IMG/VR virus record: IMGVR_UViG_3300032322_002461
Location: 1-44,536 of that record
DNA length: 44,536 nucleotides
Strand: one strand, 5' to 3'
Source of the DNA: a virus
Part shown: positions 2,892 through 39,194 of the stretch, one piece after another
Layout: each line of letters starts with the position of its first letter
How positions within the stretch are numbered: the stretch's first letter is position 1
Position numbers and translations under genes: made by a program
The notes under the pieces: generated by a model
Seen by the model: only the letters and a program-made list of their open reading frames with translations
Told to the model about the DNA's origin: nothing
Database searches by the model: none

Positions 2892-2893
2892 AA

Positions 2894-14066: not shown

Positions 14067-14316
14067 CACAATTTTTAAAAGGACTAACGTATGCCGTAGC
14101 TATTTCTCCCTTACTATCATACAAAGGTTCTTCTGTTTTAATTTCAAATACTATACCTTGAATAGTAAGGATTCCGCCTTGCGTAAGCATTTTCCTAAAT
14201 AAATTTTCTTGACGTTCAGTAAAATCTTTGGTTAATTGTATAACCTCATCTTTACTTACTTCTCTACCATTATAATAAATTGTAGTTCCTTTTCTAATTG
14301 ATTGTTTAGCTATCAT
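14017..14316 (-). CDS. Hypothetical acidic-tailed protein between polymerase fragments
   Basis: This 99-residue protein has a basic N-terminus (MIAKQSIRKGTTIYYNGREV), a central ILTIQGIVFEIKTEEPLYD beta region and a strongly acidic tail (YYEEENNETEEND). No family recognised. Its ATG overlaps the stop of the N-terminal polymerase gene as ATGA, and it overlaps the Smr-like gene downstream. It is one of two genes sitting where a single-chain polymerase would continue. Confidence 0.6.
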   Translation of the reverse strand: MIAKQSIRKGTTIYYNGREVSKDEVIQLTKDFTERQENLFRKMLTQGGILTIQGIVFEIKTEEPLYDSKGEIATAYVSPFKNCDDEYYEEENNETEEND

Positions 14317-16034
14317 AGTGTTATTTCTCCTTTTAATACTTTGTTCATATGAGTGTTAGCAAATAAAGCTGATTCTTGAATAATACGTTGCCCTGTTAAA
14401 GTTATACTTTCACTTAATATTACATTTCCGTATCTAAATGAACCTAAAGCTGTAGCACCGTATAAACTATTTAATAAAATTTTCATTGTATGTTGCATTA
14501 AATGGTATTTTTCTCCATCTGCTTTATTACCTGCTTTATAAGATTGTTTCATTTTATTTTTATAAATAACCCTTTCATCAAACCATTTTGATAGAATTGT
14601 TTTTAGTACTGAATCAAAATCTGTTCTATATAATACCCCATTAGCTGAAATAGCTAAATTTTCATTTTCGATTAGATTAATAATATCTTTAACTTTCATT
14701 TGGGCGGATTTGCGTTTAGAATTTTGAATAGTTAAATCTAATTCACTATCCATTTGTTTTAAATCATTTAACCCAAAACGGCAATTAAATATTTCTTTAC
14801 CTTCAACCACAACTTTCTCATCGGGGATAATAATTCTACCTACTAAAGTTTCTTTACCAATATTTAAAGACATTATAATTGAAGGATATAGTGATGTTAA
14901 ATCCTCGTCAAACATATATTTGAATAAACCTGCTTGGGGGCAAAATAAATACCCCCCTGCATAATTTTTCTTAGTTATAGGATTTCTATCGCGGGAGGGG
15001 GGAATTATATTCTGAGAAAGTAAATAGGCAGAAATAGCCCCATCGTGTATAAAGCTGTTTTTATAAACGTCCGAATATCTAATTTTTCCTTTATGTGCTA
15101 GATTTTTAGTTAATGGTAAATATTGAAACTTTTCATCTAGTGCTTTTATAATTTCAACGTCTCGAAAGTTATATTGGATGAATTTGTTTTTATCCTCTTT
15201 AAATAATCTATCTAAGCTGCCATTATATTCAACTTTTTCTATATTTACATATTTTTTACCTAAATAATCAAGTTTATATGATGGTTCATCTTTAAAACTA
15301 AATTTTTTATGCAATTTCATATAGTCCAGTGATTCTAAACCTGCTATATCTAACCAACGATGTTCATTCCATTCCGATTCGTCTTTAACAACCCCAATAG
15401 GTGAAAGCATGTTTGCAATTTCCACATCAAATATTTTGCACATTCTAAAATATAAATAGGGTATATCAAAGTAATCGCTGTTATAACCTACTAATATATC
15501 GGGGTTAATAGTACGAATATACTCTAAAAATTTCATGAGTAATTCTTGTTCGGTTTTTATAGGGATTATTTTTCTATTTTCTTCTACAGCATTTTCTAAT
15601 TCTCCCTTTTCATCTAAAATTAAAATAACCCATTCATCTTTCTGTTTATACCACCAAGCTATAGAAGTAACAGGTTTAGGGGCATTCATAATATAATCTT
15701 TAGTAAGAGCTCCCCCCATTTCAATCTCGATATCAAAAAACACTTCACGATGAGTTGTAGAAGGCTCATCATTAGTGCCATATTTATCAATTAAAAATCG
15801 TTGATATGGTTTAATGTCGTAGAAATGTAATCTAGGATTTTCTTTATCCCATTTTGTTACTTTACGAAGGGATTCATGTCTTAGCCCTCTAATATTTTTA
15901 TCAGCATCTATATCGTCACATTCTTCATAAGCATAAAAATTCCAAGAAAATGATTTGTAACTTTCATCATCCCATAAGTGGATTTTATAATTATTGGGGT
16001 TTATGTATTGGGCATAACACGATTTATAACTCAT
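14313..16034 (-). CDS. Family B DNA polymerase, N-terminal fragment (exonuclease, motifs A and B)
   Basis: A 573-residue T4 gp43-like fragment. The 3'-5' exonuclease is intact: Asp101/Glu103 in FFDIEIE, Asp190 in YNSDYFDIPY, and Tyr288/Asp292 in YNFRDVEI. Polymerase motif A is DLTSLYPSII (Asp378) and motif B is KILLNSLYG (Lys518-Gly526). The chain stops about 45 residues after motif B, before motif C, which is supplied by the separate downstream gene. It begins 4 nt inside the MazG-like gene and ends in ATGA with the next one. This is the main replicative polymerase if the halves assemble. Confidence 0.92.
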   Translation of the reverse strand: MSYKSCYAQYINPNNYKIHLWDDESYKSFSWNFYAYEECDDIDADKNIRGLRHESLRKVTKWDKENPRLHFYDIKPYQRFLIDKYGTNDEPSTTHREVFFDIEIEMGGALTKDYIMNAPKPVTSIAWWYKQKDEWVILILDEKGELENAVEENRKIIPIKTEQELLMKFLEYIRTINPDILVGYNSDYFDIPYLYFRMCKIFDVEIANMLSPIGVVKDESEWNEHRWLDIAGLESLDYMKLHKKFSFKDEPSYKLDYLGKKYVNIEKVEYNGSLDRLFKEDKNKFIQYNFRDVEIIKALDEKFQYLPLTKNLAHKGKIRYSDVYKNSFIHDGAISAYLLSQNIIPPSRDRNPITKKNYAGGYLFCPQAGLFKYMFDEDLTSLYPSIIMSLNIGKETLVGRIIIPDEKVVVEGKEIFNCRFGLNDLKQMDSELDLTIQNSKRKSAQMKVKDIINLIENENLAISANGVLYRTDFDSVLKTILSKWFDERVIYKNKMKQSYKAGNKADGEKYHLMQHTMKILLNSLYGATALGSFRYGNVILSESITLTGQRIIQESALFANTHMNKVLKGEITL

Positions 16035-16542: not shown

Positions 16543-17247
16543 TTAAATTGAAATGTGTCCGTTGTTTATTTTGAGTGAATCAAAAAATTCTTTACGCACT
16601 AAATTATTATTGTCCATGAATACACCGCTTGCTTTGGTAGTTACCATAGCTGCTCCTTGGTGATTAATACCCCTACAACTTACACAGTTGTGTGTAGCAA
16701 CTATAGTTATAATAACTCCTTTATTATTTTCACAAACTTTATCTACAGCTTGGTGAATTGCTGAGGTAAGTTGTTCCTGAATAGCTCCACGGCGGCCAAA
16801 ATGTTCTACGATTCGGTTTAATTTAGATAACCCGATTACTCTACCTTCATCTCCGGCAACATAGCCAATGTGTACTACACCCCTAATTGTTTGGTGGTGG
16901 TGGCTACACATGCTAGTTAATTGAATATTTCTTTCAATAATAATACCATCGTATCCATCACTCGGGAATGATGTAATTTCTGTAAATGGAGTATATCTGC
17001 CTTTCCATAAATCATTAACATATGCTTTTGCTACGCGACGAGGAGTTTCCATTGAATTAGGATCGTTTCTCCAATCGCATTTTAATGCATCAAGGAATTT
17101 ACCGAATGCTTCGGTTGCTTCCTCTATCATTAATTCTTTATCTTTGTCGGTAAGTGGGTATCCTGATGCTACTCCATTGGCATAGCCTATTGGCACGCAT
17201 TCAATATCTTTATATTGTTTGCGGCGTTTGTTTTCTATTTCTTGCAT
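16543..17247 (-). CDS. folE: GTP cyclohydrolase I
   Basis: This 234-residue protein has the FolE core: TPRRVAKAYV, LTSMCSHHHQTIRGVVHIGYV (zinc Cys and His pair), GLSKLNRIVEHFGRR, and ATHNCVSCRGINHQGA with the second zinc cysteine. The Glu that usually follows the first zinc Cys (CEHH) is Ser here. It converts GTP to 7,8-dihydroneopterin triphosphate, the first step toward both folate and 7-deazaguanine; with QueD, QueE and QueC in the window the latter fits better. It has its own promoter at 17266-17297. Confidence 0.93.
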   Translation of the reverse strand: MQEIENKRRKQYKDIECVPIGYANGVASGYPLTDKDKELMIEEATEAFGKFLDALKCDWRNDPNSMETPRRVAKAYVNDLWKGRYTPFTEITSFPSDGYDGIIIERNIQLTSMCSHHHQTIRGVVHIGYVAGDEGRVIGLSKLNRIVEHFGRRGAIQEQLTSAIHQAVDKVCENNKGVIITIVATHNCVSCRGINHQGAAMVTTKASGVFMDNNNLVRKEFFDSLKINNGHISI

Positions 17248-17265
17248 ATAACTTATTTTTTCGTA

Positions 17266-17297
17266 TGAATATAATAACCTTTATTTAAAAAACCAAG
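17266..17297 (-). promoter_or_regulatory. Bacteroidota-type promoter of folE
   Basis: Minus strand reads CTTGG-N19-TATATTCA, ending 18 nt before the folE ATG. It shares the 13-mer GTTATTATATTCA with the gp32 promoter, including the bases just upstream of the -7 box. Confidence 0.7.
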
Positions 17298-17298
17298 T

Positions 17299-17823
17299 TT
17301 AATCTACCTCAATATAAATACCTTTTACTACTTTTAGATTCCTATATAATCCATTTACCCCATCTAAACCATATCCATATAAATAGGCTTCATCTTTAAT
17401 TAAATACCCATAAATTAAATCTTTAGGAGTATCAGAAGAAAAGCGTTTAAATAAAGTTACTGGGGTTATTGATTTAGGTTTGTCTACTTGGAGTTTTTTA
17501 ATAATAAAATCCATCGTGTTGCCCGAGTCGTAAATATCGTCTATTACAAATACATCTCTATTGCAAAGAGGAATTTCGGGGTATTTAGTTATTTTTAGTT
17601 CGCCTTGGGTCACACCGTCGTATGATTTGGCTCTAATAAAATCTATTTCACAATCCCCTAATTCTCTAACTAGATCAGCAAAGAATATAAAAGCCCCGTT
17701 TAATATACAAATCATTACGGGAGGCTTTTCACATTTTTGTTCTATAACATTTTCAGCTATATTTTTAGCTATATCTTTAACTATTAGTTTTAATTCGTTT
17801 TCAGTGTATAATGTTGTGAGCAT
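17299..17823 (-). CDS. Purine (hypoxanthine-type) phosphoribosyltransferase
   Basis: The 174-residue protein has the type I PRTase fold: VMICILNGAFIFFADLVREL, the FIRAKSYDG loop, and the PRPP-binding DVFVIDDIYDSGNTM (two adjacent Asp, then DSGNT). Length and order match bacterial Hpt. It would salvage hypoxanthine or guanine into IMP/GMP using PRPP, feeding phage nucleotide synthesis. It starts 7 nt downstream of the ParB-like gene stop and ends just before the folE promoter. Confidence 0.85.
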   Translation of the reverse strand: MLTTLYTENELKLIVKDIAKNIAENVIEQKCEKPPVMICILNGAFIFFADLVRELGDCEIDFIRAKSYDGVTQGELKITKYPEIPLCNRDVFVIDDIYDSGNTMDFIIKKLQVDKPKSITPVTLFKRFSSDTPKDLIYGYLIKDEAYLYGYGLDGVNGLYRNLKVVKGIYIEVD

Positions 17824-17830
17824 TTTGTAT

Positions 17831-18247
17831 TTAATTAAAAGTATTCCAAAAATTTTCTAATGATTCATCGTCTAAAACATAACCTAACTCTCCATTAATA
17901 TCTTTGTCTATTATGTATTTTACTCTGTGGTGTCCGTCTACAACTTGAGCATCATCATACTCGGCTGTGTATTTTAGTAGTACGGGTTTGCTAGTATCGT
18001 ATTCTTGTTTAAGTTTTAATTCACCCCAATTATCGTATTCTGATGGGGTTACTTCTATGGTTTTATCATTTAATCTAATGTAGGGTTGGTTATTGTTTGT
18101 TGAAATATAACCATGAGGTTCATAAGTGCCAAATTTTTTGAATTCAGCAGAATATTTTTCTAAAAAATCTTCTTTAGATAAGGTTTTGGCATCATTGACA
18201 ATATTGTTTTTTATGTTTTCCCTTAGTAAATCAACTAATTTTATCAT
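17831..18247 (-). CDS. ParB-like domain protein with capsid-targeting-like N-terminus
   Basis: This 138-residue protein carries VVDGHHRVKYII, the DGHHR signature of the ParB/sulfiredoxin fold, preceded by a strand-rich segment (KPVLLKYTAEYDDA). Its first ten residues, MIKLVDLLRE, nearly match the start of the methyltransferase-like protein at 31599-32129 (MIKLIDILKE) and end in L-x-E, the cleavage consensus of the T4 prohead protease gp21. In T4 such a short N-terminal peptide directs internal proteins into the prohead. The gene is coupled by ATGA to a 38-codon membrane-peptide gene upstream. Nuclease or nucleotide-binding activity is possible but unproven. Confidence 0.65.
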   Translation of the reverse strand: MIKLVDLLRENIKNNIVNDAKTLSKEDFLEKYSAEFKKFGTYEPHGYISTNNNQPYIRLNDKTIEVTPSEYDNWGELKLKQEYDTSKPVLLKYTAEYDDAQVVDGHHRVKYIIDKDINGELGYVLDDESLENFWNTFN

Positions 18248-18360
18248 ACCATGTTTTTATCTTCGTCATCAAACAAATCTAATTTTTGATAATCTGTACC
18301 TCTCACCCAACGAACAGATAAAGGGATTACTATGAGTAATAGAATAAGAAATGCTACCAT
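18244..18360 (-). CDS. 38-residue single-pass membrane peptide
   Basis: A short frame starts at ATG 18360: MVAFLILLLIVIPLSVRWVR, followed by an acidic hydrophilic tail (KLDLFDDEDKNMV). It has one clear transmembrane helix with positive residues after it. Its TGA overlaps the ATG of the ParB-like gene (ATGA), the same coupling seen between certain genes here. Function unknown. Confidence 0.6.
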   Translation of the reverse strand: MVAFLILLLIVIPLSVRWVRGTDYQKLDLFDDEDKNMV

Positions 18361-18375
18361 ATTAATAAATATGAA

Positions 18376-19473
18376 TCAATTTGATAAAGGTAATTTAATT
18401 GTTGGGTGTGATTGATAGTTTTCTAATGTAAAATCTTGTGGTGAATAATAAGGTAAGCAATCACCTTCGTTCCATTTAACTTCTGGTTCAATTTTCAATG
18501 TTGGCAATGGATATGGTTCTCTATTCAATTGTTCTTTAATAGGTTCTATATGATCAAGATACAAATGTACATCTCCTAAATTTCCTATAAGCTCGTCAGG
18601 AACCATATTTACTTCCTTAGCAATAATCCCCAGCAACAAACCGTAACTTGCTATATTAAAAGGAGCACCAAGGCCAAAATCTACTGAACGTTGATTCCAC
18701 ATTAAAGAGATTGCTCTGGTTGGGATATTACTAAAGACTATGTTAAAGTCTTCGTCACCCATCATTTGAACTTCACTTGCAAAAAATCCATTAAACGTAT
18801 TACTCTCCATGGGTACATTTTCAAACACATATCTATTTCTTTCTACTCTACTCAACTCTCTTGTATAAACTTGAAATCCATAATGACAAGGTAGAAGTAC
18901 CATTTGGTCTAATTCACCTACATTCCAAGCACTAACCATTAATCGTCTACTATCTGGATTTGTTTTAAGGTCGTTGATTAGGTTTTGGATTTGGTCTATT
19001 GGTCCATATCCACAACATCTTTGATAAGTAGTAATTTCTGGAAAACTCCAACTTCTCCATTGCTTGCCATAAATTGGACCTAACTCACCCCACTTCTTAG
19101 CAAACTCATCGTCTGTTTTGATTTTGTTGATGAATTCTTCTTGTGTTAAGATAGGTTTGTTATCAATGTATTCAATATTTGGTTCCCAATGTTTTACATA
19201 ATTCTTATAAGCATCTCCATCCCAAATATGACAATCATTATCAACTAAGAATTTAATATTAGTATCACCACGTAGGAACCATAACAACTCGGTCACGATT
19301 CCTTTGAAGTACATCTTCTTTGTAGTTAATAGTGGGAAACCATCTTTCATAGAATGACGGATTTGTCTACCGAATACTGATAGAGTCCCCGTACCTGTCC
19401 TGTCTTTCTTTCCAACTCCATTATCAAGTATGTCTTGTAGGAGTGCTATGTATTGTTTATCTAGGGTGTTCAT
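18376..19473 (-). CDS. thyA: Thymidylate synthase
   Basis: A 365-residue ThyA, longer than the E. coli enzyme (264). Folate and dUMP sites are intact: KKDRTGTGTLSVFG, PLLTTKKMYFKGI, WGELGPIYGKQWRSW, the catalytic Cys in LLPCHYGFQVYT, and NIASYGLLLGIIAKEV with LGDVHLYLDH. The extra length is two insertions, one before the WGELGPIYG motif and a longer one after FQVYT (TRELSRVERNRYVF region). It makes dTMP from dUMP with methylene-tetrahydrofolate. Its ATG overlaps the stop of a 38-codon gene. Identity is certain. Confidence 0.96.
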   Translation of the reverse strand: MNTLDKQYIALLQDILDNGVGKKDRTGTGTLSVFGRQIRHSMKDGFPLLTTKKMYFKGIVTELLWFLRGDTNIKFLVDNDCHIWDGDAYKNYVKHWEPNIEYIDNKPILTQEEFINKIKTDDEFAKKWGELGPIYGKQWRSWSFPEITTYQRCCGYGPIDQIQNLINDLKTNPDSRRLMVSAWNVGELDQMVLLPCHYGFQVYTRELSRVERNRYVFENVPMESNTFNGFFASEVQMMGDEDFNIVFSNIPTRAISLMWNQRSVDFGLGAPFNIASYGLLLGIIAKEVNMVPDELIGNLGDVHLYLDHIEPIKEQLNREPYPLPTLKIEPEVKWNEGDCLPYYSPQDFTLENYQSHPTIKLPLSN

Positions 19474-19586
19474 AACTTTCTATTTTTTAATAAATTTGAC
19501 CATATTTTTATTACCATATCTCTTCTTGGAGATTGTTTTAACATTTTCCATCTGTTAATCCAATGTTCTATTTCTTCTTTATTCAT
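19470..19586 (-). CDS. 38-residue basic hypothetical peptide upstream of thyA
   Basis: A short frame, MNKEEIEHWINRWKMLKQSP then RRDMVIKIWSNLLKNRKL, amphipathic and basic. It is preceded by the window's recurrent AAAAATAAAAAGTT start context and its TGA overlaps the thyA ATG (ATGA). Both facts support translation. No family recognised. Confidence 0.6.
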   Translation of the reverse strand: MNKEEIEHWINRWKMLKQSPRRDMVIKIWSNLLKNRKL

Positions 19587-19598
19587 AACTTTTTATTT

Positions 19599-19865
19599 TT
19601 AATTTTCCTCACTTGCTATAATCTCTTTTACGTATTTCTCAACAATATGATCCGGGGCTGAAAGGATATCAAGACGATCTGCAATTTCGGTCAGACCAAA
19701 TTCTTCATCAGTCATCAGTTCTTTTCTTAAAGAATCTGCGTCTAGTTTGGTGGGTTTTTCCCAATATCCAACAAAATGAATGATGTCTAACATTTCTCCT
19801 TCCTGATTTGGATCTACGACCATCAGTCCGTATTTAATGTCTTTTGGGTTGTGTTGTTGTTTCAT
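19599..19865 (-). CDS. Hypothetical acidic protein
   Basis: This 88-residue protein contains YGLMVVDPNQEGEMLDIIHFVGYWEKPT, suggesting a beta-strand core, followed by helices (SLRKELMTDEEFGL; HIVEKYVKEIIASEEN). I recognise no family. It follows mgsA with a 4-nt overlap (ATGA) and shares the AAAAATAAAAAGTT start context with the small gene downstream of it. Confidence 0.6.
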   Translation of the reverse strand: MKQQHNPKDIKYGLMVVDPNQEGEMLDIIHFVGYWEKPTKLDADSLRKELMTDEEFGLTEIADRLDILSAPDHIVEKYVKEIIASEEN

Positions 19866-20236
19866 AACTTTTTATTTTTAAATCCTTCAATTAACAGGGA
19901 AGCTGTTGCGTAATTTGTGGCAAGAGGTATGTTGTAAACATTACAAACCCTTAGTAACATATTCACATCTACAATATGTGGATGAACAGCAAGCGGGTCT
20001 ACAAAAAAAACAACACCATCTATCTCACCTTCTGCTATCATACTTGCTATTTGAGCGTCACCACCCAAAGGACCTGATTTCTTTTTAATGACTTGAATAC
20101 CGGCGTGCTCTATGTGGGTGCCGGTAGTTCCGGTGGCAATGATTTGATTGTTCTTGAAAAAGTCTAACCTCTTCATAATAAAAGCAACCATGTCTGCTTT
20201 CTTACCATCGTGTGCTATAACTGCTATTTTTAACAT
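19862..20236 (-). CDS. mgsA: Methylglyoxal synthase
   Basis: The 124-residue protein matches methylglyoxal synthase along its length: IAVIAHDGKK (His9), IIATGTTGT (phosphate loop), SGPLGGDAQI (Asp60, equivalent to E. coli Asp71), FFVDPLAVHPH (Asp80 and His87, equivalent to Asp91 and His98) and VDVNMLLRVCNVYNIPLATN. It converts dihydroxyacetone phosphate to methylglyoxal and phosphate in the cytoplasm. It is about 25 residues shorter than the E. coli enzyme because the C-terminal tail is lost. A TTTGG-N19-TATATTTA promoter ends only 3 nt before the ATG, so the transcript may be leaderless. Confidence 0.9.
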   Translation of the reverse strand: MLKIAVIAHDGKKADMVAFIMKRLDFFKNNQIIATGTTGTHIEHAGIQVIKKKSGPLGGDAQIASMIAEGEIDGVVFFVDPLAVHPHIVDVNMLLRVCNVYNIPLATNYATASLLIEGFKNKKL

Positions 20237-20239
20237 ATG

Positions 20240-20271
20240 TAAATATATGGAATCTATTTTACAATTCCAAA
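20240..20271 (-). promoter_or_regulatory. Bacteroidota-type promoter immediately before mgsA
   Basis: Minus strand reads TTTGG-N19-TATATTTA, with the -7 box ending 3 nt before the mgsA start codon. Transcription would begin at or just after the ATG, so either the message is leaderless or initiation is atypical. Confidence 0.65.
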
Positions 20272-20276
20272 TAATT

Positions 20277-20298
20277 TATGTATAACTTTTTACACATA
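20277..20298 (-). terminator. Weak AT-rich hairpin after queE
   Basis: TATGTGTAA and TTATACATA can pair (one G-U) around an AAAG loop, starting in the queE stop codon. It is followed by AATTATTT, not a full U-tract, so termination is doubtful. It sits directly before the mgsA promoter, where a terminator would make sense. Confidence 0.3.
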
Positions 20299-21126
20299 TC
20301 TATTTTTCCCAAACATTATAATATGCAATCTTGGGCAAAACCTCCACCCCCTCATAACTGCTTGTTCCGCAATCCATCCTGTTCTTGAATTTAAAGTATT
20401 AACATCTACTCCTTCGGGCATTAGACATACATCAGAAGGAACAAAATTTTTTAATTTAGATAAAATACTTTCAATTTCTTTTATATCTTGATCAGTAGTA
20501 ATAACAAACTTTAATTGAAAATCTTTACCAAACTCTTTACAACCATTAATATATTGTTGGATAGCCTCGATATTAATTCGATCTCGTTCATGCCTTTCTG
20601 CCCAATTCTTTTTATATATTACTCCCGAATTTTTTAAATTGGCTTCCCATGGGGTTGAAGAAGATAATTTAGGGGACATAGAAACTAAATCAGTATATTG
20701 AGAAATAGATTTGTCAAATAAAGTTGCGTTAGTTTCAATAGTAGTATGATATCCTCTATTTTTTAACTTCTTTAATAAGTCAATTAGAGATTCAGTTTGC
20801 ATAGTCGGTTCTCCTCCTGAAATAACAATATGGGAAATATTTTGAGAGAGGGTATTGTCTAGTACTATTCTTATTATATCATCTACTTCCATTTGATTTT
20901 TTTCAGGATTATGACTAGAATAGGGAGTATCACATAATGACCCATTTCCATCTAACCCAACCCAAGCACATCTTAAATTGCACGCTGATGTGCGAATAAA
21001 AAGACATGCAGTGCCTGTTAATTTTCCCTCTCCTTGAAAAGTTCCTGAGTATTTAAATCCTGTTGAATCATTTTCAAGATTGTCTTTTATAGGGAATATT
21101 CCCCCTTTTACTAAGTTTAATTTCAT
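20290..21126 (-). CDS. queE: 7-carboxy-7-deazaguanine synthase (radical SAM), variant cluster loop
   Basis: The 278-residue protein has QueE features: GTFQGEGKLTGTACLFIRTS, a radical-SAM cysteine loop, VISGGEPTMQ (SAM/GGEP motif), IETNATLF and LMPEGVD. The cluster loop is unusual: the cysteines are CNLRC followed by eleven residues and then C, giving CX3CX11C instead of CX3CX2C. A different loop variant, CX14CX2C, is known in one bacterial QueE, so altered spacing has precedent. It converts 6-carboxytetrahydropterin to CDG in preQ0 synthesis. A GIY-YIG endonuclease gene separates it from queD. Confidence 0.88.
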   Translation of the reverse strand: MKLNLVKGGIFPIKDNLENDSTGFKYSGTFQGEGKLTGTACLFIRTSACNLRCAWVGLDGNGSLCDTPYSSHNPEKNQMEVDDIIRIVLDNTLSQNISHIVISGGEPTMQTESLIDLLKKLKNRGYHTTIETNATLFDKSISQYTDLVSMSPKLSSSTPWEANLKNSGVIYKKNWAERHERDRINIEAIQQYINGCKEFGKDFQLKFVITTDQDIKEIESILSKLKNFVPSDVCLMPEGVDVNTLNSRTGWIAEQAVMRGWRFCPRLHIIMFGKNRYV

Positions 21127-21127
21127 A

Positions 21128-21766
21128 TTATATTTTTTTTAACATTAATCTAATTTGTGTTCCACTAGTATTAAATATTCTTCCTATTTCTGTATAGTTC
21201 TTCCCAGATAGAAATAAATTTAATATTTCTTTTTGGTTATTCCAAAGATCTTTTCTTCTTATTTCTCCTTTTCTACATTTTTGAGATTCAGATGGGGTTC
21301 TAAAAGACACATTGTTTTCCCTTAAAATTCTTTTAATAACATCAGGGTGGCAACCGTATTGAGAACTTATAATATGCGCCCCATCTCCTGATATGTATTG
21401 TTTTATAATATCATATTTTTTTTCTTCAATATCTTTTCTCACACGAACACGATTTTGTTTTTTCCATTCTTTAATTTTATTTTTTGTTTCTTCGGAGTGG
21501 TATTCAACCCCACTACCTCCTTTAAGTTGTTTATTTAAAACCTCAAATCCTGAATTTAAGTAGTGGTGTATCCAATATGATTCACGAGGTTTCCATAAAT
21601 TTTTATCTGTTCCTTTTATTTCTTCTAAAATTTTAAATTTGATGCTATAACCATATTTTCTTTTATGATCATTTTCTCGTGATTTATTTATAGTTTTGCC
21701 TATATAAACTTTATTATAATCATTATAACAATTCATTACTAAATATATTTTTGTATCTTTTACCAT
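21128..21766 (-). CDS. GIY-YIG homing endonuclease-like protein
   Basis: This 212-residue protein opens with KIYLVMNCYNDYNKVYIGKT, the two strands of a GIY-YIG nuclease core, then YWIHHYLNSGFEVLNKQLKGG with the usual Asn-Lys segment. HSEETKNKIKEWKK resembles a NUMOD3-type DNA-binding motif. The C-terminus has two helix-turn-helix units (IISSQYGCHPDVIKRIL and YTEIGRIFNTSGTQIRLML). It is probably a free-standing homing endonuclease inserted between queD and queE. The ATG at 21766 is preferred over a TTG 11 codons upstream. Confidence 0.82.
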   Translation of the reverse strand: MVKDTKIYLVMNCYNDYNKVYIGKTINKSRENDHKRKYGYSIKFKILEEIKGTDKNLWKPRESYWIHHYLNSGFEVLNKQLKGGSGVEYHSEETKNKIKEWKKQNRVRVRKDIEEKKYDIIKQYISGDGAHIISSQYGCHPDVIKRILRENNVSFRTPSESQKCRKGEIRRKDLWNNQKEILNLFLSGKNYTEIGRIFNTSGTQIRLMLKKI

Positions 21767-21772
21767 ATTGTT

Positions 21773-21787
21773 TTTTATTATAAATAT
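21773..21787 (-). promoter_or_regulatory. Second-class promoter candidate (ATATTTATAATAAAA)
   Basis: The 15-mer ATATTTATAATAAAA on the minus strand, just before the endonuclease gene, recurs exactly before the 80-codon gene at 28038-28052. No TTTGG lies at the -33 distance, so if it is a promoter it belongs to another class, perhaps late. Confidence 0.3.
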
Positions 21788-21839
21788 GTAAAAATACAAA
21801 AAACATCGATGCTATTTTGGGATTCTTCCTAAACTCATA

Positions 21840-22379
21840 TTAATATAAGGTATATGTTGGTTCTGACCAATTAGATGGTCTGTCTGATTTGGGTATAACT
21901 AATGTTTGGGTTGGATCTTCATATGTAGCAGAATTGCGTTCGTTTTCATATACTTCTACTTTTGCTACTCTAACACGATTATTGGTTTCGGTTAATATAA
22001 ATTCATTAAGTTTAATAAAAATATATTTAGCAAATTGCTCAGCTCCTACAGCTGGTAAAAGACGAAGTTGAATAATACCATCAAAGTGCATTTGCTTGAA
22101 ATGATTTAGATATGGATCATCCTCGGCTATAATAGTGGTATGATCAAACATATAGTCCATCCAAGCTTTTGGGTTTAAGCCGTCAATTGTGTTTTTGGCA
22201 CGTTTGCTAAATCCAAAATCCATAACCCAATTACGTTCATCTAATTCACCTTCGAACCATACTCTAAAGCTAATAGCATATCCGTGTAAATATTTACAAT
22301 GCGTATCTTTAGCTTTATATTGACGAAATACAGTAGAAAATCCGTCAAATAATTTTGTTGATTGAAATTTACTTCCCAT
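21840..22379 (-). CDS. queD: QueD/PTPS-fold protein (6-carboxytetrahydropterin synthase-like), altered zinc site
   Basis: A 179-residue protein of the 6-pyruvoyl-tetrahydropterin synthase fold. It has THCKYLHGYAISFRVWFEGEL followed by NWVMDFG, MFDHTTI (the DH pair) and VEVYENERNSATY. In the usual QueD, zinc is held by FxxxH and LHGH; here the first is FSTVF and the second LHGY, so only one of three zinc His remains. Other phage and proteobacterial relatives appear from memory to share this variant. It would produce 6-carboxytetrahydropterin from dihydroneopterin triphosphate. It overlaps the thioredoxin gene by 11 nt. Confidence 0.78.
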   Translation of the reverse strand: MGSKFQSTKLFDGFSTVFRQYKAKDTHCKYLHGYAISFRVWFEGELDERNWVMDFGFSKRAKNTIDGLNPKAWMDYMFDHTTIIAEDDPYLNHFKQMHFDGIIQLRLLPAVGAEQFAKYIFIKLNEFILTETNNRVRVAKVEVYENERNSATYEDPTQTLVIPKSDRPSNWSEPTYTLY

Positions 22380-22620
22380 TGCAAAAACTCATTACTTGTT
22401 CAAAACTGCGCGCTCCGGTAAAACGTTTAACTTCTTGTCCGTTTTCTACTAAAATTACAGTAGGAATACTTTTGACATTATATTTTGTTGTTACATCAGG
22501 GGTGTAGTCAATATCTATTTTATTGACAGGAATCCCTTGTTTTGCTACTCGATCCATAATAGGACCGAATTGTTGGCACGGCTGGCACCAACTAGCGGAA
22601 AAATACCATAGTTGTTTCAT
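22369..22620 (-). CDS. Thioredoxin/glutaredoxin-like protein
   Basis: The 83-residue protein starts with MKQLWYFSASWCQPCQQFGP, carrying the WCxPC redox motif, followed by KIDIDYTPDVTTKYNVKSIPTVILVENG with the cis-Pro of thioredoxins. It is compact, lacking the N-terminal strand and helix. It could reduce the phage NrdA between turnovers. It overlaps the upstream gene by 4 nt (ATGA) and queD by 11 nt, so it is embedded in the queuosine-like operon. Confidence 0.9.
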   Translation of the reverse strand: MKQLWYFSASWCQPCQQFGPIMDRVAKQGIPVNKIDIDYTPDVTTKYNVKSIPTVILVENGQEVKRFTGARSFEQVMSFCNGK

Positions 22621-22814
22621 AAAATTTCTTCTTGTTTAATTAATTCATGTTTGTTTCCTCGTAATAAATATTGGGTTGATGATAATTCTAAGGGTTTAGC
22701 GTTGTTCCAATTAGCATCCCATTTTGGTTCTCCATGTTGTAAACCCGAAAATACTAAACCATCTTGATCCATCACAACATAGTATTGTGGTTTTGATAAT
22801 TGTTTACGCTTCAT
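22617..22814 (-). CDS. Hypothetical protein
   Basis: This 65-residue protein has a beta-hairpin start (PQYYVVMDQDGLVFSGLQHGEP) with a Trp-containing loop (KWDANWNNAKPL) and a C-terminal helix. I recognise no family. It overlaps queC by 11 nt and the thioredoxin gene by 4 nt, so it is co-translated between them. Confidence 0.6.
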   Translation of the reverse strand: MKRKQLSKPQYYVVMDQDGLVFSGLQHGEPKWDANWNNAKPLELSSTQYLLRGNKHELIKQEEIL

Positions 22815-23715
22815 GTTCTTTTAATATTTTTTCAACGTGTGATTTTGCAATCTCCCAGGCCACAGGACCAGTTTCATCGGCATAGTTTACAGGATCAGGT
22901 CGTCCTAATTTAATAAATGCTTCGATGCGTTCCACGGAACTTGCTGATTTGTAGTCTGAAAACCATTCACCCCATTTAGTTCTAAGAGTTTCTTCTACTC
23001 GAGATGTACTTTCAGGTCCAGGTATCCATATTGGTTTATACGAGGTATTTGTACGTGCGTATACTTCATCAAAATCTAGATTTAATTCTTTGCACAGCAT
23101 TTCTCCATCTTTTAAGATAGTAAATTTGTCACCATGTAAATAAGGTGTAAAATATCCTACCCTTTCAGATTCCCAATTACCAAGTCTAAATGCCCTATCG
23201 TCAGCATCTCTAAATTCTTGTCTGCAGTCAGGATAAATTGCATGATCACCGGCGTGTATTCCTAATGCAATATCGCATGTTTCGTTTCGTTGAGTGGCAA
23301 TGGATAAAGCTACTGCTTGTACAATCGAAGCAAAGATTTTATTCCGATTAGGAACAACTGTTGCTTTCATATTTTCTTCAGCATAGTGCCCTTCAGGAAC
23401 TTCAACACCACCAGCTACAAGTGCTGAATTGAGTAGACTTGTTAATCCGTCTAATCTAATTACTTGATAGTTTACCGGTGAGTATATTTCTTCGAATCCA
23501 TTAGGGGCATGATCGTGGTGGAACATACGAGTAGGATTGTCATTGATGTATTCTACTAATAATTGGGCACGTTCAAGTTCAACTCGATGTTTTTGACCAT
23601 AATCAAAACTTATAGCAATAACATTTTTGTATTCTTTTAAACAGCGTAAAAGTAAAGTGCTGCTGTCCATCCCACCACTAAGTGAAACTACGACATTGTC
23701 TTTAAGGTTATTCAT
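22804..23715 (-). CDS. queC: 7-cyano-7-deazaguanine synthase, lacking zinc cysteines
   Basis: A 303-residue QueC with the PP-loop SLSGGMDSSTLLL at the N-terminus, VVPNRNKIFASI, CDIALGIHAGDHAIYPDCR, and SSVERIEAFIKLGRPDPV near the C-terminus. Typical QueC proteins are about 230 residues. The four zinc cysteines (TWSCY and CGxCxxC) are gone: the equivalent segments read NTSYKP and YKSASSVERIEAF. It converts CDG to preQ0 using ATP and ammonia. Enzyme identity is clear, but the missing zinc site is notable. Confidence 0.9.
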   Translation of the reverse strand: MNNLKDNVVVSLSGGMDSSTLLLRCLKEYKNVIAISFDYGQKHRVELERAQLLVEYINDNPTRMFHHDHAPNGFEEIYSPVNYQVIRLDGLTSLLNSALVAGGVEVPEGHYAEENMKATVVPNRNKIFASIVQAVALSIATQRNETCDIALGIHAGDHAIYPDCRQEFRDADDRAFRLGNWESERVGYFTPYLHGDKFTILKDGEMLCKELNLDFDEVYARTNTSYKPIWIPGPESTSRVEETLRTKWGEWFSDYKSASSVERIEAFIKLGRPDPVNYADETGPVAWEIAKSHVEKILKEHEA

Positions 23716-33097: not shown

Positions 33098-34453
33098 TTA
33101 TTTTAAAAAGAAATTACTGTGCTGTCTTAAAGCTTCTTTGTCTTGGTCTGTAATGCCTGACTGGAATCTTTGGGGTTGAGTAGGAGTTAAATCTTCTAAT
33201 TCAGCATCTGTAATTATTTCAAAGTGCCCTGTAGAAGTATCTATTCTAGCTCCGTATGTTAATCCATCCATTCCGTATCTATTTTTCATAATGTGCCATC
33301 GTCCTGTTCCATTTACTTTATCTTCGCGTTTACGACTTAAAGAGGCCGCAAAGTCAGTAATCATAATTTTATCATATGATCCCGCGGCTTTATGACCTTC
33401 AATAATATCATCTTGTGCACCTGCACGATTAACTTGTGACACTGACCAAATTGGTAAGTTTAATTCGCGAGCTAATCCTTTAGTACTAATATAAATATCA
33501 TCAATTTCGTCCTTACGCTCACGATTTAACTTTTTAGAACGAAGAAGATCTACATAGTCTATAATAATCAGATCAGGCTTAAATTCTAGATCAATACATT
33601 TTTTGATGTGTGCTTCAAGAGTAGATATTGATGCTTTACCTGGTGAATATTCTTTAATAATTAATTGGCCTTTTAATTCTTCGGTAGATTGGGTTACCTT
33701 ATCTTTATTAGCTATTACTAAATTAACAGGTATATTTGAAAAATAAGCATCGTATCTTCTACCTACATACTCTTCACCTAGTTCTAATGTGTAATGTATA
33801 ACATTATATCCCAATTTTATAGCATAGGCACCTAATGCTACTAATGCCCAAGATTTACCACCTCCAGGATTACCAAATACCAAGCCAAAATCTCCATTTC
33901 CCAACCCCCCTTGTAATAGTTCATTAAATACTTCCCAAGGAGTAGGAACAATAGTTCTGTGTTCTTCTCTATAACGTGATTCCAAATCTTTATTGTATTC
34001 ATGTCCAATATTTTTGTCTTGTCCTGCTTTCATAGCAGCTTCAATCATAAATTTAATAGAATCATAGTCACCAGCTTGTAATAAGTCTACTGATTGCAAC
34101 AATGCTTTTTTAAGCATTTGATTTTTACAAAATGTAGAAAATTCTTCTTCAACATATGCCAAATCATCTGATTCTTTATAAGCTTCACGCAACTGATCTT
34201 TAATAGAAATTTGTAAAACTTCATTTTGTACTTTTTTTAATTCTACTTTAAGTACCTCTAAAGAAGGAGTTGTATGATATTTGCTATAATATTTTAATAT
34301 TTCTTTGATTATCCACTTGTGGGCCTGAGATTCAAAGTATTCATCGCTTATTATATCATATATGTTGGTTAAAAAACTTTTATGGTTTAATAACGCGGCA
34401 AGTACTTTAATTTGGAAACCTGCGCCATATTCATTGATTGATTTTAGTGTCAT
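33098..34453 (-). CDS. Replicative DNA helicase, T4 gp41/DnaB-like
   Basis: This 451-residue protein has an N-terminal helical domain (NEYGAGFQIKVLAALLNHKSF) and a RecA-like C-terminal domain with Walker A FGNPGGGKSW (Gly194-Lys200), Walker B DLIIIDYVDLL, and SVSQVNRAG (DnaB Q-loop). It unwinds DNA ahead of the polymerase as a hexamer. It overlaps the 5'-3' exonuclease gene by 23 nt. Confidence 0.9.
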   Translation of the reverse strand: MTLKSINEYGAGFQIKVLAALLNHKSFLTNIYDIISDEYFESQAHKWIIKEILKYYSKYHTTPSLEVLKVELKKVQNEVLQISIKDQLREAYKESDDLAYVEEEFSTFCKNQMLKKALLQSVDLLQAGDYDSIKFMIEAAMKAGQDKNIGHEYNKDLESRYREEHRTIVPTPWEVFNELLQGGLGNGDFGLVFGNPGGGKSWALVALGAYAIKLGYNVIHYTLELGEEYVGRRYDAYFSNIPVNLVIANKDKVTQSTEELKGQLIIKEYSPGKASISTLEAHIKKCIDLEFKPDLIIIDYVDLLRSKKLNRERKDEIDDIYISTKGLARELNLPIWSVSQVNRAGAQDDIIEGHKAAGSYDKIMITDFAASLSRKREDKVNGTGRWHIMKNRYGMDGLTYGARIDTSTGHFEIITDAELEDLTPTQPQRFQSGITDQDKEALRQHSNFFLK

Positions 34454-35498
34454 ATAACTCTTTATTATAACTTATTAATTTATTAAATGCGGATTGGATC
34501 CAATAGTCAACATTTTTAATTATGTGACGTAATCCGTCTTCGTGATAATACTTAAGAAAAGTTGGGGATTCAAGTTTAGGTGCATGGTTTTCAATTTCTT
34601 GATTTAAATAATCAATTTCCTTTTCACTTACCATAGGATTATGCAAATCCATAACTTTATAATTGCGTCTTAAGTTATCTTCTTCAAATAATATTCTTGA
34701 ATAAACAATGTGTTCTTTCATTTTGTGTTTACATATATCAAAAATATCGTCCAAAGTAAGAGTACGTTCGGCTAGTTCAGGAAATTTCTTAAGTATGCCT
34801 TTATCTCCTAAACCTTTAATCCCTTTAACTTTATCAGACGCATCTCCTAATAAAGTTTTGTATATCGTAAAATTAGAAGCAGGAATACCAAATCTTTCTT
34901 TAACAGTACTTTGTGTATAATATTCTTTTTCTACAGGGCGATATACAACTATTTTATCGTTTATCAATTGTATAAAATCTTTATCACTAGATACTATAAA
35001 TACTTTAGAATTATAATCTGTACTTAGTTTTTTAGATAAATACGCTATAATATCGTCTGCCTCTAGTTTATCTATTGATATAGTTTTAACAGGTAAACAT
35101 TTTAAATAATGTATTAAACGAACAATTTGGTTTACTTTAGCTTCATTTTCATCTTCTAATGAATCAAACATATCCCAGTTTGTAATACGAGATATATTAC
35201 GATTTTCTTTGTATTCGGGGAGTAGATTCCTACGGTTTACCGTGGAACCTACTCCGTCAAATACTACATAAACTGAGGTTGGATTAATATGATTTATTAA
35301 GAATCCTAGGGAGCGTAAAAACCCACCTAAACCACCTACGTGTATTCCTTCTTCATTAATGAACTTTAACATAGCAAAATTTCTAAAAAATAAATTTAGC
35401 CCATCAATTAAAAGCACACGATCGTGTTTTTCTAAGGATTCTGTTTCATTCTCCTCAACTACATTGTCAAGGAGTTGTAATAAATCTTTCTTTTCCAT
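34431..35498 (-). CDS. 5'-3' exonuclease/flap endonuclease, T4 RNase H-like
   Basis: A 355-residue PIN/FEN-fold protein. Metal-site acids are in VLLIDGLNLFF (Asp32), ISIDKLEADDIIAYL and VSSDKDFIQLI, and the helix-hairpin-helix is LGDASDKVKGIKGLGDKG. It removes RNA primers and flaps during lagging-strand synthesis, as T4 Rnh does. The first 25 residues are an acidic extension. It starts one nt after the uvsX stop and overlaps the helicase gene. Confidence 0.9.
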   Translation of the reverse strand: MEKKDLLQLLDNVVEENETESLEKHDRVLLIDGLNLFFRNFAMLKFINEEGIHVGGLGGFLRSLGFLINHINPTSVYVVFDGVGSTVNRRNLLPEYKENRNISRITNWDMFDSLEDENEAKVNQIVRLIHYLKCLPVKTISIDKLEADDIIAYLSKKLSTDYNSKVFIVSSDKDFIQLINDKIVVYRPVEKEYYTQSTVKERFGIPASNFTIYKTLLGDASDKVKGIKGLGDKGILKKFPELAERTLTLDDIFDICKHKMKEHIVYSRILFEEDNLRRNYKVMDLHNPMVSEKEIDYLNQEIENHAPKLESPTFLKYYHEDGLRHIIKNVDYWIQSAFNKLISYNKELYDTKINQ

Positions 35499-35499
35499 A

Positions 35500-36579
35500 T
35501 TAATCTGGCTCGTTTGTGTATTCGGTTGTATCTATAAATGTATCATTTTCTTCAATGATATCAAAGTCTAGTCCACCGAGTATCGCACTCCATTCTTTGG
35601 CGTGTGAGTCTTTATAGGATTTAATTTCCTTTTCACTATCATTAATAAAACCGTGAGGGGTCATGATAATATTACCTCTTGTAGTAATACCGTTAATATG
35701 GTTTTTATCAATTTGAATTTTAGTACGCTTAGCAAATTCTACTTGTTTACCATCTTTAATAGCTTTAATTTTGCTAGTTCCGGCATTTGATACATTACCA
35801 AAGGTAATTACAAAAGTAGCATCAAACCACATTGCAAATCCACCCTTATTCATAAGTTTGGGTTGGCTCATTGGGGTTTCAGCTTTAGCTGTCCATACTT
35901 TATTGATACAAACCAAAGTATTGGTGTATGGGTAACTTTCCTTACGAGACAATGTAATACGTTGATTTACATTATTACCAAATTGGGTTGACATAGCACC
36001 TGCGTTCCATTCGTTGTTATTTTTGTTTGAACGAACCGATAATTCACAGGGCACGGACCCAATTGAATCCCATAAAAACATTAAATCATACGGTAAATTA
36101 CCTTTTTTCTGCTCGTCTAATAAATCTAAAATAAATGCTGCTACATCTTCAATAGTATGTATAGTTTCTCGGTCAGCATATATAAAAAACCCATTATAAT
36201 CAGTAACTTCACCTGTTTCCTCGTCAACTACCTCATTAACTTCAAGGCCCATTTGTTTAACGTGTTCCCAAGACCATTTCATTTCTGTGGTAATAAACAC
36301 AGGTAATATTTTTGATTTTTGGGCATTAACAGCAGCTTCAATTAACGCTGTGGTTTTACCTGTATCACTGTGCCCTCGAAGTAACACAATATGACCAGTT
36401 GGGATACCGGGCACAGAGGTTACTTCTTGGAACGCAGAAGAAAGCGGGACCCATTTTTGGGGCTTAAATTTAACATTACCTGTTAACCCCTTCTTATCCT
36501 TAAATTTATCAAGGTTAAAATTCGATTTTAGCTCGGCAGATACTGCCTCTGCTAAAGATTCATCGCGCTTTCTAGCCAT
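35500..36579 (-). CDS. uvsX: UvsX-like RecA-family recombinase
   Basis: The 359-residue protein has Walker A LRGHSDTGKTTA (to Lys75), Walker B LMFLWDSIGSV, and the conserved NKNNNEWNAGAMSTQFGNNVNQRI helix found in UvsX, with a C-terminal TRGNIIMTPHG. It forms filaments on ssDNA and starts recombination-dependent replication together with the gp32-like SSB. It is separated from gp32 by 2 nt and ends next to the flap exonuclease gene. Length is close to the 391 of T4 UvsX. Confidence 0.9.
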   Translation of the reverse strand: MARKRDESLAEAVSAELKSNFNLDKFKDKKGLTGNVKFKPQKWVPLSSAFQEVTSVPGIPTGHIVLLRGHSDTGKTTALIEAAVNAQKSKILPVFITTEMKWSWEHVKQMGLEVNEVVDEETGEVTDYNGFFIYADRETIHTIEDVAAFILDLLDEQKKGNLPYDLMFLWDSIGSVPCELSVRSNKNNNEWNAGAMSTQFGNNVNQRITLSRKESYPYTNTLVCINKVWTAKAETPMSQPKLMNKGGFAMWFDATFVITFGNVSNAGTSKIKAIKDGKQVEFAKRTKIQIDKNHINGITTRGNIIMTPHGFINDSEKEIKSYKDSHAKEWSAILGGLDFDIIEENDTFIDTTEYTNEPD

Positions 36580-36581
36580 AA

Positions 36582-37385
36582 TTAAAACGGCATGTCACTG
36601 TCCTCTTCAAAAATATCGTTAAACTTATCTAGTTTAGATTGCTTAACATTAGCAGAGGAAGTATTTAGTGAATAATTCGTTTTAGGCGCTTGTTCTTTTT
36701 CTTCTTCGACAACCGTCTCACTTTCTTCATTTGGGCTTAACCAATTTTGAAGAGCAGTTTTCATTTCATCGAATGAGAATGGTTTGAACAAATCTTTAGG
36801 GTTAGGTTGGTTTTCCAACCAAGTTCTCACTTGATCAGCACTACCTAATTCACTGTTTTTCATTGAAGGACTAATAGTAGTGCGATTATATTTAGTACCT
36901 GTTGATTCGGGACCAACTGTAACTAATTTAATATCGCGGCCTTCATTGAGGTCGGTGTAGTCACCTACTTCTTCATCCACAGCAAGCTGTAAAAATGCTT
37001 CATAGGTTTCCTTACCGAATTGCCACAAACGAACACCCTTATCTTCTTCACCACGGACAATGATAGGAGCAAAATAACGAGCTTTTGGCTCAATTTTTTT
37101 AGCTAATCTCCAATTTTCCTTATCGTTGGTTTTCTTCAATTGAGCTGCAAACTCTACAATTGGGTCTTTATCTCCCCAATTAATTGGTGAAACCATAACG
37201 GGCTTGTCAATGTCGTAATGAAAGAAAATTTCACTAAAGGGCATTGCTGGGTTATGTTTTGAAGGCACTACACGAATGGTTTGCTTACCAATTGTGGGCT
37301 TCCAAAACATAGATTTGCGTTCTTCACTAGTTTGACTAGTTTTTTGCATCTGATTAAGACGCTGTTTGATTGCTTTTAAATCCAT
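36582..37385 (-). CDS. Single-stranded DNA-binding protein, T4 gp32-like
   Basis: This 267-residue protein follows the gp32 plan: a basic N-terminal segment (MDLKAIKQRLNQMQKTSQ) for cooperative binding, an OB-type core with FWKPTIGKQTIRVVPSKHNP and KARYFAPIIVRGEEDKGVRLWQFG, and an acidic tail ending FNDIFEEDSDMPF for protein contacts. The T4 zinc site is missing, since the protein has no cysteine. It coats ssDNA at forks. It has its own TTTGG-N19-TATATTCA promoter and the AAAGTT start context. Confidence 0.85.
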   Translation of the reverse strand: MDLKAIKQRLNQMQKTSQTSEERKSMFWKPTIGKQTIRVVPSKHNPAMPFSEIFFHYDIDKPVMVSPINWGDKDPIVEFAAQLKKTNDKENWRLAKKIEPKARYFAPIIVRGEEDKGVRLWQFGKETYEAFLQLAVDEEVGDYTDLNEGRDIKLVTVGPESTGTKYNRTTISPSMKNSELGSADQVRTWLENQPNPKDLFKPFSFDEMKTALQNWLSPNEESETVVEEEKEQAPKTNYSLNTSSANVKQSKLDKFNDIFEEDSDMPF

Positions 37386-37413: not shown

Positions 37414-37445
37414 TGAATATAATAACTAATTTTTAAAAAGCCAAA
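37414..37445 (-). promoter_or_regulatory. Bacteroidota-type promoter of the gp32 operon
   Basis: Minus strand reads TTTGG-N19-TATATTCA, 28 nt before the SSB start. It shares GTTATTATATTCA with the folE promoter. Confidence 0.75.
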
Positions 37446-37892
37446 TCAAAGTTCAACAATCTTAAAAATTTTTGTTCTTAACTGCCTTAATTCATTTTGT
37501 TGGGTTAACAAAATTGTGTTTTTATAGTGTTGCCAGTCTATTCTATAATTGGTATCTACAACACCCCCATTTAAACTTTTAATCAATTCATTCAAAGCAT
37601 TAATAGTATATAATGTATTTGAATCCTTTTTCCTGTGAACCAAAATTGTGTTTTGTGGGATATAACTTATGTTTCCGTGCTCGGTATTATAAGTTAAGAC
37701 ATATTCGTTACTGTCCTTAACTTCAAGTACAAATATTTTATTGTACATTATCGAATAAGAATTCGATATAGAGTTTACTAAGCCCTCCAATTCAAGGGGG
37801 GTAGTAAAAGTACAAAATAATTTATTATTCAAATCTGTATAGTTTAAGGTACTGTCCATACTATACATATCGTAAGATGTGTTAAAAATCAT
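37446..37892 (-). CDS. Hypothetical protein next to the PolA-like gene
   Basis: The 148-residue protein has several beta strands (MIFNTSYDMYS, KIFVLEVKDSNEYVLTYNT, NISYIPQNTILVHRK) and a C-terminal helix (QQNELRQLRTKIFKIVEL). No family recognised. It overlaps the PolA-like gene by 11 nt, so the two may work together, for example as processivity or priming partner; that is inference only. Confidence 0.6.
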   Translation of the reverse strand: MIFNTSYDMYSMDSTLNYTDLNNKLFCTFTTPLELEGLVNSISNSYSIMYNKIFVLEVKDSNEYVLTYNTEHGNISYIPQNTILVHRKKDSNTLYTINALNELIKSLNGGVVDTNYRIDWQHYKNTILLTQQNELRQLRTKIFKIVEL

Positions 37893-39144
37893 AATTTTTC
37901 CCGTTTTTTACCTTATAATGCAAATTGTTTGCACTTAAAATGTTTTCGATTTGGCACAATATATCCACTTCTTTACCATCCCAATCAAACAAAAAAGCAT
38001 CGTAAGTATACATAACTAATTTTGTATTTTTTCCTTTTAATATTTTAAAAATCTCCCACAATATACATATATTATACGAAGTTTCCAAATTTTGTAGTAT
38101 ATAGTTGAACAATTTTTGGGGGTTCATGTTATCCAACTTGTCTTTTTTAAAGCAATAACCCGAAATTGGCACAATAACTTGCCCCGAGTTATTAAACTCC
38201 TCCCAGATATCGTATATATATTTTTTGGTTTTACTAAAATATTCAATATTTTCATATTCTTTTTGTATGCCCCCGTATAATTGTCTAAATGTAGATTCTT
38301 TGGCTTGTGATTCGCTAATGCCCATTTCTTTACTAATTGCGGAATAGAAATTAGAAAAATCAATTGAATCGTAATTTATAAGCCAACCTACTAAAGTAGG
38401 GTGGTAAGCCGAAATATCAAATTCAACAAGTTTTGTGTTGCGGGGGATAAATGAACTGCGACATCCATTCTCTTTATTAAGGGCAGCGTAATTAATACCG
38501 TTAAATGTATTGGAAGGACGCGTTGTTAATGTCTTAAAATTGTATTGAGTGTAAACTACGTCGGTTTGTATGTCTTGATTAAAATGTTGGTTATAAACAC
38601 TATTACCCACAAATAAACCGGATTGTTCTATACCGTAAAATACCCAAGTGGCTTTGTGGTTGTAAAATTCGTTTACGGGCTGTTCTATTAAATGTTCTAA
38701 TTCCTCAAACAGCGATTCACAATACTCGTAGTGTTTAACTATTGGTACTAGTGTGTTTATACTTGGGTGGGTTGGGTATTTTTGGTATAAAAATTCGTGA
38801 GCGGCGGTGAGTTGTATATACGTAGGGTTGAGGAGGGTGAGGTCAACTGCATTGCGTAATGGAAAATAATGTAAAAATTCTTTTTTGTCTTTTACATATA
38901 TTTTTTGTGCTTGTTTTAATATTAAAAATACTTCGTCTTCAAATAATTTTTCTTCTACTTCGGTGTGGTATATTGGTATTAGGTATCCTTTGTAGTGATT
39001 TATAGGACGAATGTAAATGCAACTAATTGACGATTCAGCAGGGTGAGTAAAAGGTGAGTATGGAATTATCTCAACGAATATTTCGCTTAGATTTCGAACA
39101 GCAAATTGTTTTAATTGTTGTTTATTTTCAATTAACCAAAACAT
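37882..39144 (-). CDS. Compact, divergent family A DNA polymerase-like protein
   Basis: This 420-residue protein carries the family A palm signatures in order: the TGR-like TTRPSNTFNGINYAAL (Arg209), motif A VEFDISAYHPTLVG (Asp243), motif B AKESTFRQLYGG (Lys282, Phe286, Tyr290), the SGYCFKK segment, NPQKLFNYILQNLETSYNI matching the N-x-Q region, and motif C MYTYDAFLFDW (Asp382). Lys-to-Tyr spacing in motif B matches Pol I. The steric-gate Glu of motif A is His, and His/Glu of motif C are Tyr/Ala. The N-terminal 150 residues look like an exonuclease fold without its acidic residues. It has its own promoter, outside the replisome operon. Confidence 0.72.
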   Translation of the reverse strand: MFWLIENKQQLKQFAVRNLSEIFVEIIPYSPFTHPAESSISCIYIRPINHYKGYLIPIYHTEVEEKLFEDEVFLILKQAQKIYVKDKKEFLHYFPLRNAVDLTLLNPTYIQLTAAHEFLYQKYPTHPSINTLVPIVKHYEYCESLFEELEHLIEQPVNEFYNHKATWVFYGIEQSGLFVGNSVYNQHFNQDIQTDVVYTQYNFKTLTTRPSNTFNGINYAALNKENGCRSSFIPRNTKLVEFDISAYHPTLVGWLINYDSIDFSNFYSAISKEMGISESQAKESTFRQLYGGIQKEYENIEYFSKTKKYIYDIWEEFNNSGQVIVPISGYCFKKDKLDNMNPQKLFNYILQNLETSYNICILWEIFKILKGKNTKLVMYTYDAFLFDWDGKEVDILCQIENILSANNLHYKVKNGKNYDF

Positions 39145-39162: not shown

Positions 39163-39194
39163 TTAATATATAAAACTATTTTTGGTTCTCCAAA
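39163..39194 (-). promoter_or_regulatory. Bacteroidota-type promoter of the PolA-like gene
   Basis: Minus strand reads TTTGG-N19-TATATTAA, 18 nt upstream of the PolA-like start. The -33 box is the left half of a short inverted repeat (TTTGG-AGAA-CCAAA). Confidence 0.65.

Follow-up and report, generated by a model that had tools for sequence, protein, structure and literature searches.

The window, which is the whole 44.5-kb stretch of DNA analysed and a fragment of a phage genome, carries on its minus strand an open reading frame (37882–39144; 420 amino acids) that encodes a real and probably active second DNA polymerase, in stripped-down form, of a large phage. Coordinates and length are those of the initial annotation, and the assignment is based on a structure model, a profile alignment and conservation. 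The product is almost certainly a member of divPolA1, that is, an accessory family A polymerase with an intact palm site, a dead exonuclease and almost no thumb. The family is already described and not new: the text of Yutin et al. (2024, Virol J 21:200; PMC11348598) reports it in 14 phages, including Flavobacterium phage immuto, as a polymerase with a truncated thumb, an inactivated exonuclease, an intact palm and replication genes downstream, whose DNA synthesis activity was inferred from structure prediction. The window enzyme resembles that description in being an extra PolA beside a regular polymerase, in its thumb, exonuclease and palm residues, and in the conserved replication genes that follow it. 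The immuto phages, the founding carriers, are also its best annotated relatives. Immuto gene 1 is the best annotated match (35.5% identity over 96%, E 2e-70) and lies in the same gene order.

Fold and family assignment

The AlphaFold2 model of the 420-residue protein is of high confidence (pLDDT 92.7, pTM 0.90). All of the top 50 PDB matches found by Foldseek (down to 1.6e-16) are family A DNA polymerases, and the top solved structures are the apicoplast polymerase, Klenow, and the mycobacterial and Bst Pol I enzymes (E 1e-16 to 1e-13). The apicoplast polymerase and Klenow align with TM scores of 0.62–0.76 by query length at E about 1e-16; matches in BFVD are phage PolA proteins. The model and its Foldseek matches thus contain the right-hand palm fold of Pol I, the comparison on which the initial annotation staked its assignment, and Asp243 and Asp382 fall on the Klenow catalytic pair.

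Searched as a single sequence, the protein gave no match in Pfam or in PDB sequences, so that profiles were needed. The immuto relative scores above the DNA_pol_A threshold of Pfam (4.6e-11, from model position 103), and 8 of 24 family members match PF00476, more weakly than the immuto relative. A first IMG/VR scan with the polymerase gave 67 relatives, 24 of which were aligned (alignment A1). With the A1 profile, E. coli Klenow was retrieved from the PDB (E 0.0013) through three colinear segments that skip the thumb: the IERNGVKID helix, the stretch from TGR through motif A to motif B, and motif C. DNA polymerase I entries lead this search and no RNA polymerase is among its matches. Scanning IMG/VR with A1 yielded at least 589 matching stretches; a further result of the A1 scan was five matching stretches in bacterial or archaeal MAG contigs, and those of sufficient length have the same gene order as the phage loci.

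The active site

Conservation was assessed in 77 non-redundant family sequences (<90% identity). By the relatives' profile, D243, K282, F286, Y290 and D382 are equivalent to Klenow D705, K758, F762, Y766 and D882, which bears out the family A positions proposed for these five residues; R209, H248, N347 and Q351 correspond to R668, E710, N845 and Q849. The polymerase therefore has the motif A and motif C aspartates (codons 38416–38418 and 37999–38001, minus strand) and the K-x3-F-x3-YG of motif B. Seven residues (R209, D243, H248, K282, Y290, Q351 and D382) are invariant in 77/77 members. With the Klenow structure match at E about 1e-16, this puts the match to family A well beyond chance. Compared with an 83%-identical relative (L004), dN is 0.09 and dS 0.81 (dN/dS about 0.12). 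Residue conservation and dN/dS together indicate strict selection on the polymerase centre and loss of the proofreading centre.

The replacement of the motif A steric gate Glu by His, also noted in the initial annotation, is real and fixed, His248 (codon 38401–38403, minus strand) being present in every one of the 77 members in place of Glu710. The Glu missing from the family is the usual family A residue and does not define the fold. Further positions depart from Klenow: H881 is replaced by Tyr in 75 of 77 members, E883 by Ser or Ala in all 77, and R754, which contacts the triphosphate in Pol I, mostly by Tyr. The changes at R754, E883 and the gate may have altered catalysis.

A His gate and a YDS/YDA motif C, which can be likened to the HDS motif C of T7 RNA polymerase, would admit ribonucleotides, and the enzyme could then be a primase or an RNA polymerase. 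The invariance of His at the E710 position and of Ser or Ala at the E883 position fits such an activity. However, His is still bulky, so exclusion of rNTPs may persist, and the profile search yields DNA polymerases and no RNA polymerase. Immuto and three contigs of 140–170 kb encode a DnaG-type primase, which disfavours RNA synthesis, including a role as substitute for a missing primase. In the window itself, a 44.5-kb fragment, no primase or further repair genes were seen. We regard an RNA-synthesizing enzyme as very unlikely.

Exonuclease remnant and thumb

Residues 1–155 form a degenerate 3′–5′ exonuclease fold, residues 159–190 are the remaining stump of the thumb base, and residues 195–420 make up the palm and short fingers. 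The exonuclease site is lost: F90 occupies the position of D424, H138/Y139/E140 occupy the D501 region, and the D424 position is Phe or another non-acidic residue across the 77 members. The alignment thus has the catalytic aspartates replaced throughout the family, with an uncertain register at exo I. The earlier claim that the N-terminal region lacks acidic residues is slightly too strong, as E25, near exo motif I, is common. The dead fold keeps the nearly invariant polar residues H34, H60, K88, H138 and E140, of which H60 seems to correspond to the PVAHD His of Pol I; they could possibly form a retained or new binding site. As to the thumb, the hhalign alignment skips 90 Klenow residues after residue 189, and the AlphaFold2 model has no helix between residues 189 and 210.

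Loss of so many Pol I contacts (R754, E883, the thumb and the exonuclease) would also be expected of a relic that no longer catalyses and has a structural or regulatory function. Both metal-binding aspartates and the equivalents of Lys758, Tyr766, Arg668 and Gln849 never vary, and we give a dead relic very little credence.

The X148 partner

The polymerase is followed by a gene for a 148-residue protein, X148 (37446–37892, minus strand), whose first 11 bp lie within the end of the polymerase gene. The two genes overlap in 110 of 127 loci. An IMG/VR search with X148 found the polymerase directly in front of it in 63/63 loci, each with at least 700 bp upstream and drawn from the 80 closest relatives, hence not an unbiased sample. 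Among 50,697 phage records, both proteins match the same six and no others. In most of the same loci X148 is more conserved than the polymerase. Its fold is without a known match: the structure model is moderately confident (pLDDT 84), and searches of Pfam, PHROGs, PDB sequences and Foldseek gave nothing. The SV40 T-antigen origin-binding domain showed a weak, non-significant similarity to it, and this candidate was rejected.

A contact between the two proteins is hypothetical. On a less likely reading, divPolA1 and X148 would be the two subunits of an obligate complex; X148 would then serve as a thumb substitute or would load the enzyme onto DNA coated with gp32, and sugar selection would be altered by the fixed His gate.

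Replication genes and expression units

Downstream of X148 lie, all on the minus strand, genes for a gp32-like single-stranded DNA binding protein (36582–37385; PF08804 3.9e-15, phrog_1192), a UvsX/RecA-like recombinase (35500–36579; phrog_97 5e-15), a 5′–3′ exonuclease of the FEN/Pol I 5′-nuclease type (34431–35498; PF02739 1.6e-34) and a DnaB-like replicative helicase (33098–34453; phrog_19 1.9e-79). The order polymerase, X148, gp32, UvsX, 5′–3′ exonuclease, DnaB, ribonucleotide reductase recurs in nearly all sufficiently long loci. In the most distant members the order is interrupted by insertions, and some of their loci gave no UvsX match.

The initial annotation gave the polymerase its own promoter. 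A sigma-70 scan of the upstream region found nothing above shuffled sequences, from which one would conclude that there is no promoter. This conclusion is overturned by the sequence TTTGG-N19-TATATT (39165–39194, minus strand), a conserved promoter-like element that lies 20 nt ahead of the polymerase gene and recurs in relatives: the looser form TTGG-N17-24-TANNTT lies upstream of the polymerase in 52 of 79 relatives vs 3.2 expected. The earlier claim thus stands as a promoter-like element. A second element that recurs in relatives (37416–37445, minus strand) starts the gp32 unit. In the window, TTGG-N19-TATNTT occurs at ten sites on the coding strand and at none on the other, with 1.9 expected. 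Across loci, a TTGG-N18-20-TATNTT site stands ahead of the polymerase in 69 of 129 cases and ahead of gp32 in 86 of 120, and was found before X148 in 0/127, UvsX in 0/104 and the 5′ nuclease in 0/96. The region accordingly reads as two putative expression units, polymerase–X148 and gp32–UvsX–nuclease–helicase. Elements of the TTTGG-N19-TATATT type recur in the window at 7536, 12130, 17268, 20242, 25625, 37416 and 39165 (minus strand) with the spacer fixed at 19 nt. This motif, which we take to resemble the −33/−7 promoters of Bacteroidota, likely represents a phage promoter class.

The other polymerase

The window also encodes a family B polymerase in two parts, as had been proposed: an N-terminal part of 573 residues (14313–16034, minus strand; phrog_262 1.1e-108) with the exo motifs, motif A (SLYPSI) and motif B (NSLYG), and a C-terminal part of 312 residues (12880–13818, minus strand; phrog_262 1.3e-38) with motif C (YIDTDS). 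The split falls between motifs B and C. A sliding clamp-like processivity factor (12161–12877, minus strand; phrog_223 8.7e-11) adjoins it. The gap in the family B locus (12880–16034, minus strand) holds two small ORFs, of 99 and 84 residues, the latter weakly Smr-like. A split near phrog_262 position 567 also occurs in contigs G002, G003 and G026, and G008 has an ORF pair that matches it; in G005 and G027 the polymerase is unsplit. In G028 a single long frame spans the split point and carries about 95 inserted codons there. An intein was considered and rejected, since neither part contains additional residues that could make up an intein half.

Mel-JY01, the 484-kb LR756508 and each of the four contigs of 158–170 kb encode a PolB, and immuto has a separate exo-positive PolA of 777 residues. 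A 140-kb contig (G004), which may be incomplete, had no PolA or PolB match, and no family C polymerase was found in ten contigs. In LR756508.1 (260623–266900, L071) the family B polymerase occupies at least two frames (1022 and 625 residues) over 6 kb, and the same genome has a relative of the compact PolA and of X148. A separate replicase thus exists in every complete or 158–170 kb genome examined, and the window phage itself has a proofreading-type, split family B polymerase by a clamp gene. The presence of a family A polymerase in addition to a family B enzyme is therefore supported, and the compact enzyme is most likely an accessory polymerase.

The gene context described in the text of PMC11348598 leaves open the reverse assignment, with divPolA1 as the main replicase and the 'regular' polymerase as accessory. 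In its favour, the family of the regular enzyme varies (A, B or C; PMC11348598), while the compact polymerase stays with the helicase, SSB and recombinase. However, it would have to replicate a genome of about 160 kb with no proofreading and hardly any thumb, and it is the family B gene that retains exonuclease motifs and has the clamp gene as its immediate neighbour. We consider this assignment highly improbable.

Other genes of the window include GTP cyclohydrolase, QueE-like and QueC-like genes (16543–23715, minus strand), which probably serve 7-deazaguanine DNA modification; immuto also has QueD, QueF and DpdA. The thymidylate synthase (18376–19473, minus strand) has 365 residues aligned to about 280 model positions, which suggests an internal insertion. 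A sugar/glycosyltransferase cluster (1–6100, minus strand) with an epimerase, an aminotransferase and glycosyltransferases is also found in immuto.

Proposed role

The explanation that we favour as a whole, with somewhat more confidence than doubt, is a divPolA1 accessory polymerase that forms a two-gene unit with X148 and works in gap filling. Catalytic activity, low processivity and this role are suggested by the neighbouring genes and by the anatomy of the protein. Because it has neither a normal thumb grip on duplex DNA nor proofreading, the enzyme would add few nucleotides per binding event. It would fill short gaps at Okazaki junctions and in recombination intermediates in concert with the adjacently encoded 5′–3′ exonuclease, gp32 and UvsX, while bulk synthesis would be left to the family B enzyme and its clamp; we put this division of labour at about even chances. 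Distributive gap filling with a separate 5′ nuclease would amount to the work of Pol I rebuilt from separate genes.

The initial annotation suggested repair, translesion or lagging-strand synthesis as possible roles. The gene neighbours favour gap filling in lagging-strand synthesis or recombination, but D-loop extension and translesion synthesis would fit the same neighbours, and the latter is the chief alternative. A polymerase with no proofreading, little thumb and an altered site could pass damaged or hypermodified template bases, and the 7-deazaguanine synthesis genes of the window and immuto are consistent with this, as are the lost exonuclease and reduced thumb. On the other hand, the polymerase is always found by core replication genes and not by damage-response genes, and its promoter-like element is of the same type as that of gp32. 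We therefore think a translesion polymerase unlikely.

Relation to known systems

Compared with E. coli DNA polymerase I (Klenow), the window polymerase has the same fold order and catalytic residues. It is about 185 residues shorter, has a thumb gap of 90 residues, carries E710H and has a dead exonuclease; the 5′ nuclease is encoded by a separate nearby gene. The divPolA2 of barbaviruses, as described in PMC11348598, is likewise an extra, exonuclease-less PolA beside PolB. By that description its N-terminal domain is unrelated and its neighbours vary, whereas the window polymerase retains the exonuclease fold and lies in a neighbourhood that is fixed.

In a full-text search the name divPolA1 appeared only in PMC11348598 and its preprint. 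The word 'steric' is absent from the main text of that paper, and we noticed no mention of X148 or a promoter in its text; its authors may nonetheless have seen these features. The window phage differs from the divPolA1 phages as described there in pairing the compact enzyme with a two-gene split PolB. Beyond the paper's text are the His gate, X148, the promoter-like element and a range that extends to a Microcystis phage and a 484-kb phage. Our analysis adds the His gate in 77/77 members, the constant X148 partner, the two-gene unit with its promoter-like element, and gp32–UvsX–5′–3′ exonuclease–DnaB as the next unit.

The family shows how little of Pol I can be retained with its active site still strictly selected, and its at least 589 IMG/VR stretches provide a large natural set of second polymerases from phages that have a replicase as well. 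X148 and the fixed active-site His are two new testable leads on the role of these extra polymerases, and the constancy of the partner makes that role accessible to a two-protein assay.
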